A stretch of DNA of 64,000 nt. It comes from Pseudoalteromonas sp. FUC4 (GTDB lineage: Bacteria; Pseudomonadota; Gammaproteobacteria; Enterobacterales; Alteromonadaceae). This document shows positions 57,616 through 60,651 of this stretch, in pieces. Position numbers and translations under genes: made by a program. Every line of letters begins with the position of its first letter. Positions within the stretch are counted from its first letter, which is position 1. Location of the stretch: assembly GCF_008370255.1 (NCBI RefSeq), contig NZ_SEUI01000005.1, forward strand, positions 56,006 to 120,005, read 5' to 3'. Under the pieces are notes generated by a model. It was not told where the DNA came from. It ran no database searches and saw only the letters and a program-made list of their open reading frames with translations.

Positions 57616-58839
57616 ATGCAAAGAGTATTAGTGGTTGAAGACAGTAAAGTAGTGCAGCAGGTACTTCGCCACTTAACTGCACAATACCTTGATGTAGCAA
57701 TTGATTTTGCCTGGTCTTTAGCTGAATGCGCAACCTATGTAGAAAAGCACGATTATACGCTTGCGTTAGTCGATCTAACTCTACCCGATGCTCCGCACGG
57801 TGAAGTTGCAAAATATACTTTATCTAAAAAAATTCCTACGGTTGTTTTAACTTCAAAAATAGATGAATACAAGCGCCAACAAATGCTTGAATTAGGTGTT
57901 GTTGATTATGTTATTAAAGATAACCGTGATTCTTACCACTACGCTGTAAAACTCGTTGCGCAATTACTAAGAAACCAAGGCTGTAAGGCATTAATAGCTG
58001 ATGATTCCATGTTGAGTCGCTCGTTAATGAAACAAATGCTTGAAAAGCAATTGTTCGATGTAACAGATGCCCACGACGGCCAACAAGCACTCGAAATATT
58101 AAAAACTAATCCTGATATAAAGCTACTAATGACTGATTACGCTATGCCCTCTATGGATGGCTTTGAGCTGGTTAAAGCGGTGCGTAATTTTAGAGGCCGA
58201 GACGATTTAGCAATTATTGGTTTATCGGGCGCTGGAAAACATGGGCTATCTGCACGATTTATTAAATATGGCGCTAATGACTTTTTAACAAAGCCATTTA
58301 TGAATGAGGAGTTTCATTGTCGAGTACTTCAAACAATGGAGCAGCTGTCGTTAATCTCAGATATTAAGGAAAGTGCACATAGGGATCATTTAACAGGGCT
58401 TCATAACCGACGCTATTTTTATCAATATGCAGAAAAGCTTCTTAAAAGTAAAAATCAGAAAAACACTCTAGCGTTACTTGATATCGATTTTTTTAAAAAT
58501 ATTAATGATACGTTCGGTCATGAAGGCGGCGATCAGGCTTTAAAACAGGTTGGCTCATTAATACGATCTACATTCTCAAAGTTTACGGTTGCACGGGTTG
58601 GCGGAGAGGAGTTTGCCATAATATTACCAGAGATAGAGCTTGAACGTGGTCGAGAATACTTTGAAGCATTTAGAAAAAAGCTGGCTAGTTACGATTTTTC
58701 TATAAGCGATAAATCAATTAAAATTACCACGAGTATAGGCTTAGCAGACTTTCAAGACACTAGCTTAACGCAGGCAATGCGTGTTGCTGACAAAGCATTA
58801 TACGAAGCTAAAAACCAAGGTAGAAACTGCGTGGTATAG
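57616..58839 (+). CDS. Diguanylate cyclase with two receiver domains
   Basis: A 407-residue cytoplasmic REC-REC-GGDEF protein. The receivers have phospho-acceptors Asp53 (ALVDLTLPD) and Asp174 (LMTDYAMPSMDG). The cyclase domain carries DIDFFKNINDTFGHEGGD and an intact GGEEF at 329-333, so c-di-GMP synthesis is expected. The inhibitory site normally RxxD five residues before it reads SKFT, so feedback by product is probably absent. No kinase gene is adjacent. It could feed PelD of the pel operon in this window, but that is inference. Confidence 0.93.
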   Translation: MQRVLVVEDSKVVQQVLRHLTAQYLDVAIDFAWSLAECATYVEKHDYTLALVDLTLPDAPHGEVAKYTLSKKIPTVVLTSKIDEYKRQQMLELGVVDYVIKDNRDSYHYAVKLVAQLLRNQGCKALIADDSMLSRSLMKQMLEKQLFDVTDAHDGQQALEILKTNPDIKLLMTDYAMPSMDGFELVKAVRNFRGRDDLAIIGLSGAGKHGLSARFIKYGANDFLTKPFMNEEFHCRVLQTMEQLSLISDIKESAHRDHLTGLHNRRYFYQYAEKLLKSKNQKNTLALLDIDFFKNINDTFGHEGGDQALKQVGSLIRSTFSKFTVARVGGEEFAIILPEIELERGREYFEAFRKKLASYDFSISDKSIKITTSIGLADFQDTSLTQAMRVADKALYEAKNQGRNCVV

Positions 58840-58847
58840 CTTTGTTA

Positions 58848-58893
58848 TATAAAGCTAAGCATGCAATTAATATAAAGCTAAGCATGCAATTAA
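58848..58893 (+). repeat. Perfect 23-base tandem duplication
   Basis: Two identical head-to-tail copies of a 23-base unit (TATAAAGCTAAGCATGCAAT + TAA) begin nine bases after the cyclase stop codon. Each contains the palindrome GCATGC. It looks like a recent slippage duplication. Confidence 0.9.
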
Positions 58894-58930
58894 CATATTG
58901 CACGCACCAATGTAGATAACTTGTTAAATT

Positions 58931-58957
58931 AACGCACCTGATTGGTGCGTTTTTTTT
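58931..58957 (+). terminator. Rho-independent terminator before glnK
   Basis: AACGCACC / GGTGCGTT with loop TGATT followed by eight T. It ends transcription from the cyclase gene. The same bases match an NtrC site. Confidence 0.85.
58933..58947. promoter_or_regulatory. Candidate NtrC-binding site
   Basis: GCACC-TGATT-GGTGC equals the NtrC enhancer consensus GCACC-N5-GGTGC. Its centre lies about 72 bases before the -24 element of the sigma-54-type promoter of glnK, within the usual enhancer range. A further half-site TTGCAC lies at 58975-58980. Confidence 0.65.
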
Positions 58958-59011
58958 GTTTTTTAGTTTCTGTTTTGCACTAACTTATTGTTTTAAAAAA
59001 TATAAAAATAG

Positions 59012-59027
59012 TGGCACAAAGGTTGGA
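59012..59027 (+). promoter_or_regulatory. Sigma-54-type promoter of glnK-amtB
   Basis: TGGCAC-AAAGG-TTGGA matches the -24/-12 consensus TGGCAC-N5-TTGCA with one change; the GG and GC positions keep the 10-base spacing. Transcription would start near 59038, before the glnK ribosome site GAGGGGG. Its presence rules out the longer upstream reading of glnK. Confidence 0.75.
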
Positions 59028-59073
59028 TTGTTTAACCCAACAGGATAACAATAAAGAGTCCGAGGGGGCCGCT

Positions 59074-59412
59074 ATGAAAATGATTAGTGCAATCATAAAA
59101 CCATTTAAATTAGACGACGTGCGTGAAGCACTCGCTGATTTAGGAATTGAGGGGATGACAGTAGTTGATGTTAAAGGTTTTGGACGTCAACGAGGTCATA
59201 CTGAGTTATATCGTGGTGCAGAATACCAAGTAGATTTTATTCCTAAGATCAAACTTGAAATTGCAACGCGTACTGAAAATTGTCAACGCGTTGTTGAAGC
59301 AATCACTAAAATTGCATCAACTGGTAAAATTGGTGATGGTAAAATTTTCGTATACGACTTAGATCAAATTGTTCGTATCCGTACTGGCGAACTTGACGAA
59401 GAAGCAATTTAA
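59074..59412 (+). CDS. glnK: P-II nitrogen regulatory protein GlnK
   Basis: A 112-residue P-II signal protein. The T-loop has Tyr51 (TELYRGAEYQVDF), the uridylylation target, and the ATP site region TGKIGDGKIFVYDLDQIVRIRTGE is complete. GlnK binds AmtB to block ammonium entry when nitrogen is sufficient. ATG at MKMISAI is chosen because the promoter lies inside the longer frame. It is followed after nine bases by amtB, supporting GlnK rather than GlnB. Confidence 0.94.
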   Translation: MKMISAIIKPFKLDDVREALADLGIEGMTVVDVKGFGRQRGHTELYRGAEYQVDFIPKIKLEIATRTENCQRVVEAITKIASTGKIGDGKIFVYDLDQIVRIRTGELDEEAI

Positions 59413-59421
59413 GGGGGTCTC

Positions 59422-60651
59422 ATGGAAAATACAATAATAGAACTAAAATTTTCACTCGATACCTTCTATTTTTTAATATCAGGTATATTAGTAATGTGGA
59501 TGGCAGCAGGTTTTGCCATGTTAGAAGCGGGCTTAGTTCGCTCTAAAAACACAGCTGAAATTTTAACTAAAAATGTCGCGCTGTATTCAATTGCATGTAC
59601 GATGTTTTTATTAGTTGGCTACAACATTATGTATGTAGACAATGCCGAAGGTGGTTTTATTCCTTCAATAGGCGCTTTAATTGGCACACAAGCTGCTGAT
59701 GCTGACCATTCTTTAGAATCTGACTTTTTCTTCCAAGTAGTATTTGTTGCAACGGCTATGTCGATTGTATCGGGTGCTGTTGCTGAGCGCATGAAGCTAT
59801 GGGCTTTCCTTGGCTTTGCTGTAGTACTAACTGGTTTTATTTACCCTATTGAAGGTTACTGGACATGGGGTGGTGGTTTCTTATCTGAAATGGGCTTTGT
59901 AGATTTTGCAGGTTCTGCAATTGTACATGGCGCAGGTGCAGCTGCTGCACTAGCAGGTGTATTAATCCTAGGTGCTCGTAAAGGCAAATATGGTAAAAAC
60001 GGTGAAATATACCCAATTCCAGGTTCAAACTTACCACTTGCTACACTAGGTACATTTATTTTATGGATGGGTTGGTTTGGCTTTAACGGGGGGTCTCAAT
60101 TACTACTTTCGGATAAAGAAAACGCAACAGCGGTAGGTCAAATATTACTTAATACTAATGCAGCTGCTGCAATGGGTGCTATTGCTGCACTGTTTGTATG
60201 TAAGGTACTTTGGGGCAAATCAGATTTAACCATGGTATTAAACGGTGCATTAGCAGGTTTAGTTGTAATTACTGCTGACCCACTTTCACCTTCTCCATTA
60301 ATGGCATGTTTACTAGGTTTACTTGGTGGCTCATTAGTTGTGTTTAGCATTATAGCACTTGATAAAGTTAAGATTGACGATCCAGTAGGTGCTATCTCTG
60401 TACACGGTGTGTGTGGTGCATTAGGTATTATGTTAGTACCGCTAACCAATGGTGATGCAAGCTTTGTTAATCAGTTAATTGGCCTACTTTGTATTCTTGC
60501 CTTTGTATTTGTAGCATCATTTATTGTTTGGACAGTGCTTAACAAAACAATGGGTATACGAGTAACTGAAGAGGAAGAACTAAACGGTATGGATCAACAC
60601 GATTGTGGTATTGAAGCCTACCCAGAGTTTGTTTCTGTTCGAAATAGCTAA
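59422..60651 (+). CDS. amtB: Ammonium transporter AmtB
   Basis: A 409-residue Amt family channel with about 11 membrane helices. Typical segments are DTFYFLISGILVMWMAAGFAML, the GFIYPIEGYWTWGGGFL loop, DFAGSAIVHGAGAAAALAG with its pore His, WFGFNGGS and ISVHGVCGALG. There is no cleavable signal peptide. The operon with glnK and the sigma-54-type promoter indicate nitrogen-limited expression. A terminator with a TTCG tetraloop follows. Confidence 0.96.
   Translation: MENTIIELKFSLDTFYFLISGILVMWMAAGFAMLEAGLVRSKNTAEILTKNVALYSIACTMFLLVGYNIMYVDNAEGGFIPSIGALIGTQAADADHSLESDFFFQVVFVATAMSIVSGAVAERMKLWAFLGFAVVLTGFIYPIEGYWTWGGGFLSEMGFVDFAGSAIVHGAGAAAALAGVLILGARKGKYGKNGEIYPIPGSNLPLATLGTFILWMGWFGFNGGSQLLLSDKENATAVGQILLNTNAAAAMGAIAALFVCKVLWGKSDLTMVLNGALAGLVVITADPLSPSPLMACLLGLLGGSLVVFSIIALDKVKIDDPVGAISVHGVCGALGIMLVPLTNGDASFVNQLIGLLCILAFVFVASFIVWTVLNKTMGIRVTEEEELNGMDQHDCGIEAYPEFVSVRNS

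Follow-up and report, generated by a model that had tools for sequence, protein, structure and literature searches.

A single palindrome upstream of glnK-amtB in Pseudoalteromonas probably acts both as an NtrC enhancer and as the terminator of the preceding gene

In the Pseudoalteromonas genome studied here, one palindrome between a gene for a GGDEF-domain response regulator and the glnK-amtB operon very probably has two jobs. As RNA it would form the terminator of the upstream gene, and as DNA it would be the NtrC enhancer of glnK-amtB. That one palindrome might end transcription as RNA and recruit NtrC as DNA was proposed in a first-pass annotation of the window, by which we mean the whole 64-kb stretch of DNA that was analysed. 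Comparison with relatives supports this proposal through a conserved core, a trend that links T runs to the direction of the upstream gene, and an outer stem that covaries. The features of the locus are listed in Table 1.

Table 1. Features around the palindrome upstream of glnK (window coordinates) and loci of relatives in which the upstream stop codon falls in the core
Feature	Position	Strand	Basis or remark
Response regulator with GGDEF (diguanylate cyclase) domain, upstream collinear gene	57616..58839	+	
Degenerate second NtrC-like site	58904..58918	+	has a GCACC half-site 30 bp before the strong core
8-bp hairpin AACGCACC-TGATT-GGTGCGTT	58931..58951	+	terminator scan and RNA fold
NtrC core GCACC-N5-GGTGC (candidate enhancer)	58934..58948	none	motif and position-wise conservation; doubles as the five inner base pairs of the hairpin
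Run of eight T (terminator tail)	58950..58957	+	its first two bases pair with the stem AA
Sigma-54-type -24/-12 element TGGCACAAAGGTTGG	59012..59026	+	motif match and conservation
glnK, P-II nitrogen regulatory protein	59074..59412	+	below the curated cut-offs of two matching NCBIfam models
amtB-type ammonium transporter, marine subtype TIGR03644	59422..60651	+	675 bits, cut-off 514
Upstream GGDEF stop codon in the NtrC core	loci L010, L012, L013, L147, L148, L150-L152, L159, L161, L178, L179, L182, L185		

The stem of the upstream gene's terminator had been read as exactly GCACC-N5-GGTGC, and this was confirmed: the palindrome GCACC-TGATT-GGTGC forms the inner stem of an 8-bp hairpin that has the features of an intrinsic terminator, namely eight pairs (five of them G-C), a loop of five bases and a run of eight T. 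The RNA of 58920-58962 folded at -13.9 kcal/mol (z = -5.6), and none of 200 shuffled sequences folded equally well; the minus strand of the hairpin region also folded, at -12.8 kcal/mol. Within 58500-59500, this hairpin was the sole terminator-like site on the plus strand. Judged from these features, transcription of the upstream GGDEF gene is most likely ended by the hairpin RNA.

We compared the regions upstream of glnK from 99 genomes that were placed in Pseudoalteromonas by named relatives; throughout, sampled genomes were assigned to Pseudoalteromonas, Vibrionaceae or Enterobacteriaceae from the matches that they shared with named records. With gene direction taken from the longest upstream open frame rather than from annotation, the GGDEF regulator was collinear with glnK in 76 of the 99 genomes, and in the other 23 a different gene pointed away. 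A run of at least five T followed the core in 64/76 collinear versus 5/23 divergent genomes (Fisher, 5e-8, in a test that ignores relatedness), and the median minimum free energy of the 33-nt hairpin was -15.1 kcal/mol in the collinear versus -9.2 kcal/mol in the divergent group (p 7.5e-7). Under a looser terminator rule (at least five pairs, five of eight T), a terminator-like site was found in 74/76 versus 15/23 genomes (Fisher, 9e-5, again ignoring relatedness). On a glnK tree, orientation changed five times and the T-run state eight times. An independent-pairs test on this tree gave approximately 1.5 pairs that went the same way, none that went the other way and 2.5 that showed no difference, these pairs being too few for significance.

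The association had exceptions on both sides, and a strict rule, by which a terminator is present if and only if the upstream gene is collinear, was rejected. Twelve collinear genomes had T runs of only 3-4, and five divergent genomes kept a T run (L155, L158, L168 and L127 with six T each, L184 with five). On the glnK tree, the sister of L155, L158 and L168 is the collinear L134. L127 had no GGDEF gene within the stretch read and kept its T run with an outer stem broken past one pair; its sister, L123, has both the GGDEF gene and the stem. The exceptions L155, L158, L168 and L127 thus look like recent losses of the upstream gene. A comparison of G.T with A.C at outer pairs 1-5 (25 to 1 in collinear, 11 to 5 in divergent Pseudoalteromonas) was confounded with the T run and was set aside.

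It is possible that the palindrome is an NtrC site only, flanked by A/T tracts that are merely AT-rich or bent DNA, and that it brings about no useful termination. Any NtrC site can fold, and 18 of the 23 divergent genomes keep the core without a T run of five, as this explanation would predict. Against it, the T runs track the direction of the upstream gene, and none of the 76 collinear genomes had another terminator, by the looser rule, between the upstream stop codon and glnK outside the site. The outer stems of Vibrionaceae, described below, also covary, in 20 paired versions, and we consider an enhancer without a terminator unlikely.

The Vibrionaceae set comprised 69 places from matches to a pattern of the 78-bp layout (30 + 39 loci) and 18 named loci, 87 in all. 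One of these, L263, was dropped as no glnK was found, which left 86 loci with 65 distinct sequences; named and unnamed loci may coincide, and places that did not look like glnK on visual inspection, as well as further pattern-matched places, were left out. The upstream gene differs from that of Pseudoalteromonas: a collinear YacL-like gene was found in 83/86 loci (tblastn with one such protein). By the rule used, 50 of the 62 sequences with the YacL-like gene had a terminator at the site, and six of these had another one upstream. The remaining 12 had none either at the site or upstream, which agrees with an enhancer-only site, and it was not borne out that collinear Vibrionaceae lacking the hairpin use another terminator upstream.

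Among the 65 distinct sequences, core pairs 1-3 were invariant and pair 4 was present in all but one. Outer pairs 2, 3 and 4 were each seen as C-G, G-C, A-T and T-A. Outer pairs 1-5 were formed in 273 of 325 cells, compared with 191 +/- 6 when partners were shuffled (maximum 214 in 2000 shuffles, which ignore relatedness), and the proportion paired was 84% in register as compared to 52-62% when the register was slid 1-3 bases towards 3'. In 49 sequences the 4-bp outer stem was fully paired (with G.T allowed), in twenty different versions, for example GGCC/GGCC, AACC/GGTT, CCTT/AAGG, GGGC/GCCC, GCTC/GAGC and GGTC/GACC. The 45 sequences picked for terminator features were excluded as pairing evidence, having been picked for it. 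An alignment of relatives, suggested in the first-pass annotation as a check on whether stem pairs and enhancer bases are conserved together, thus gave a near-fixed core and, in Vibrionaceae, outer pairs that vary in a compensatory fashion. This is what an RNA hairpin built round a fixed protein site would look like. As a separate observation, a G at position -9 before the core, in a GTGA- or GGGA-like motif, was present in 64/65 distinct Vibrionaceae sequences and in 19/20 of those without terminator features.

The outer palindrome is symmetric as DNA too, and it could in principle be part of a longer site for a protein, NtrC or another dimer, rather than an RNA hairpin; the published NtrC consensus, as quoted in PMC8743547, does have T/A at outer position 1. 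Outer pair 1 lies outside the T run; there, T.G (which pairs in the RNA of this strand) was found 23 times and C.A (which does not) three times in Vibrionaceae. At this pair the NtrC consensus would favour a left T and a right A alike. T.G also exceeded C.A by 6 to 3 both in divergent Pseudoalteromonas and in the Vibrionaceae that lack terminator features, so the excess is not confined to terminators. The outer sequences vary widely between species and yet pair, which a sequence-specific protein would not need, and the T run is one-stranded and follows gene direction. Together with the 23 to 3 ratio, these observations make an extended operator very unlikely.

The DNA half of the proposal could not be taken from the motif. 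The NtrC consensus, or NtrC box of E. coli, is quoted as TGCACCAnnnTGGTGCA in the excerpted text of PMC8743547. With up to one mismatch allowed, GCACC-N5-GGTGC matched once in the window, where 0.92 matches were expected. In the 4.33-Mb genome, the exact core occurred in three copies versus none for the same pattern read backwards, and with up to one mismatch there were 68 matches versus 30. The second exact copy (L004:2223-2237), which has no T run, precedes an asparagine synthetase-like gene by approximately 260 bp; it is possibly a further NtrC target. The third is a plain terminator between an oxidoreductase-like and a CBS-domain-like gene (names read from translations) with no nitrogen gene adjoining, which indicates that a terminator can carry the core by chance. 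The motif match alone was rejected as evidence on account of these three exact copies, one of them in a nitrogen-unrelated terminator, and of the chance-level count in the window.

Similarly, the sigma-54 element could not serve as evidence on its own, since matches to its pattern with up to two mismatches were at chance level in the window (57 matches, 62.8 expected). A sigma-54-type promoter had been placed 65 bases downstream of the palindrome. The element is present on the plus strand, one mismatch from TGGCAC-N5-TTGC with the C at -12 replaced by G; its distance needed correction, as it starts 63 bases past the end of the core, or 78 bp from start to start. Since the motif is at chance level and has a nitrogen-unrelated copy, the case for the enhancer must rest on position and conservation.

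Both were found across the genus. Rather than keeping the hairpin and losing the GCACC/GGTGC bases, which would have spoken against the first-pass reading, all 99 Pseudoalteromonas genomes keep the site, 76 exactly and 23 with one mismatch to GCACC-N5-GGTGC. Seven core bases (G1, C2, A3, G12, T13, G14 and C15) were invariant in 99/99, C4 was kept in 98/99, C5 in 89/99 and G11 in 87/99, and the loop of five bases varies. From core to sigma-54 element, measured start to start, the spacing was 77-79 bp in 95 genomes and 68 bp in the other four, and a GCACC half-site was present 30-31 bp upstream of the core in 92/99. Vibrio and Photobacterium have the same layout of core and sigma-54 element, and variants of it occur in Shewanella, Moritella, Agarivorans and others; many of the more distant loci compared had no such site. 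When genomes of the order were scanned with a pattern of the 78-bp layout, 68 of 394 matched, and the reversed pattern matched one. In the family taken for Vibrionaceae the pattern matched 100 of 159 genomes. Some of these matches lie elsewhere than at glnK. A terminator that resembles an NtrC site by chance, with glnK driven from other sites, would fit the nitrogen-unrelated exact copy and the chance-level motif count; it is highly improbable given that the site stands at near-fixed spacing in 99/99 genus genomes, even without a T run, and is kept in Vibrio, Photobacterium and others. With respect to the sigma-54 element, the base at 59026 (C at -12 in the consensus) was G in 92/99 and A in 7/99 Pseudoalteromonas genomes, with TGGCAY-N5-TTG mostly conserved; this is a conserved departure from the sigma-54 consensus at glnK across the 99 genomes.

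The genome also encodes the proteins that such an enhancer would need for activity, NtrC (713.7 bits, cut-off 558.6) and RpoN (514.7 bits, cut-off 277). The ntrC gene clusters with ntrB-like and glnA-like genes, named from their translations, and NtrC-like palindromes precede glnA and ntrB.

In the two-function reading that we prefer, the hairpin and its U residues would end transcription at the end of the GGDEF-regulator transcript, as sequence and comparison suggest. As DNA, the inner 15 bp would bind a phosphorylated NtrC dimer, helped by the weaker site 30 bp upstream. When nitrogen is short, the bound NtrC dimers would loop to sigma-54 polymerase 78 bp downstream, and glnK-amtB would be transcribed; the protein families and the conserved layout point to this step. 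The two constraints would then act on different bases: protein recognition would fix the inner stem, and the outer stem and T run would be free to vary while they still pair and end in T.

The enhancer is probably the more constant and older element, and the terminator is probably an add-on that was gained more than once. We infer an order of enhancer first, terminator added, because divergent lineages have the enhancer with an outer stem of at most two pairs (many divergent Pseudoalteromonas, five Shewanella and one Moritella), and also because the upstream genes and the outer stems differ between the two families. Terminator trimmings may have been added round the enhancer where the upstream gene is collinear (GGDEF in Pseudoalteromonas, YacL-like in Vibrionaceae and possibly mdlB in E. 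coli), and where the neighbour is divergent most genomes appear to have weaker trimmings or none. It could also be that the overlap is itself regulatory. NtrC on the terminator DNA might be a roadblock by which termination is sharpened when nitrogen is scarce; transcription reading through from upstream might displace NtrC and so couple upstream transcription to glnK-amtB activation. We regard this extension as rather doubtful.

The component pieces are already known. In E. coli, mdlB and glnK are given as collinear at an RpoN/NtrC target in the accessible portion of PMC8743547, and the glnK-amtB enhancer described in that portion resembles the one in the window in the kind of core palindrome, the downstream sigma-54 promoter and the target operon. 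We found that in the mdlB-glnK gap of E. coli K-12 the core GCACTGTCATAGTGC lies inside an 11-bp hairpin that is followed by a short T-rich tract, TTCATTTT. In the window it is the core that forms the inner stem, and eight T follow, whereas in E. coli the right half pairs with an extra half-site on its left, and the T tract is both short and interrupted. In the open-access texts searched, we found no mention of a terminator role for this E. coli hairpin. A search of 40 enterobacterial genomes gave a match in 24; 27 of the 30 returned loci had glnK and three were second pieces, leaving 24 distinct places. At seven of these (L299, L302, L303, L309, L310, L311 and L315), a core hairpin was followed by at least five T within a few bases, as judged by eye and irrespective of upstream gene direction. 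Enterobacterial glnK enhancers also occur in hairpins with T-rich tails, and in several the extra left half-site is a pairing arm.

The nearest precedent is that of DNA-uptake sequences, which form Rho-independent terminators in Neisseria and Pasteurellaceae according to the available part of PMC1852404, where Vibrio is named too. Similar to the palindrome in the window, these are a DNA motif of other machinery that was co-opted, as an inverted repeat, for a terminator stem. They differ in being many copies of an uptake signal; the window has a single transcription-factor enhancer, which serves the next operon and occupies one orthologous place, and its outer stem evolves separately from the core. 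Ordinary intrinsic terminators of Pseudoalteromonas and Vibrio, as covered in the excerpt of PMC1852404, share with the window the stem, short loop, T run and collinear upstream gene, but the bases of the inner stem in the window are fixed by a second constraint. In the portions of the open-access literature searched, outside which most subscription papers lie, we found no report of an NtrC enhancer that doubles as a terminator.

If the two-function reading is correct, the palindrome would offer a clear natural example of one sequence that carries two codes with separable shares, the inner stem being set by the protein and the outer stem by pairing. Relatives with the enhancer and a divergent neighbour would be partial natural controls. 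The locus would also show how a ready-made palindrome can become a terminator when a gene lies upstream of an enhancer. As a caution, annotation software may call the same bases either a terminator or an enhancer.

Two observations concern the sequence just upstream. Between the upstream stop codon and the enhancer in the window, a 23-bp unit, ATATAAAGCTAAGCATGCAATTA, was seen by eye to be repeated in tandem (58847-58893). In 11 of the 99 Pseudoalteromonas genomes, the stop codon of the upstream frame (TAA or TGA) lies inside the 15-bp core, and all eleven G-to-A changes at core position 11 are present because the stop codon sits there. The same was seen in three named P. luteoviolacea records (L010, L012 and L013), which may be among the eleven. 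At these loci, the coding end, the enhancer and the hairpin share the same bases.
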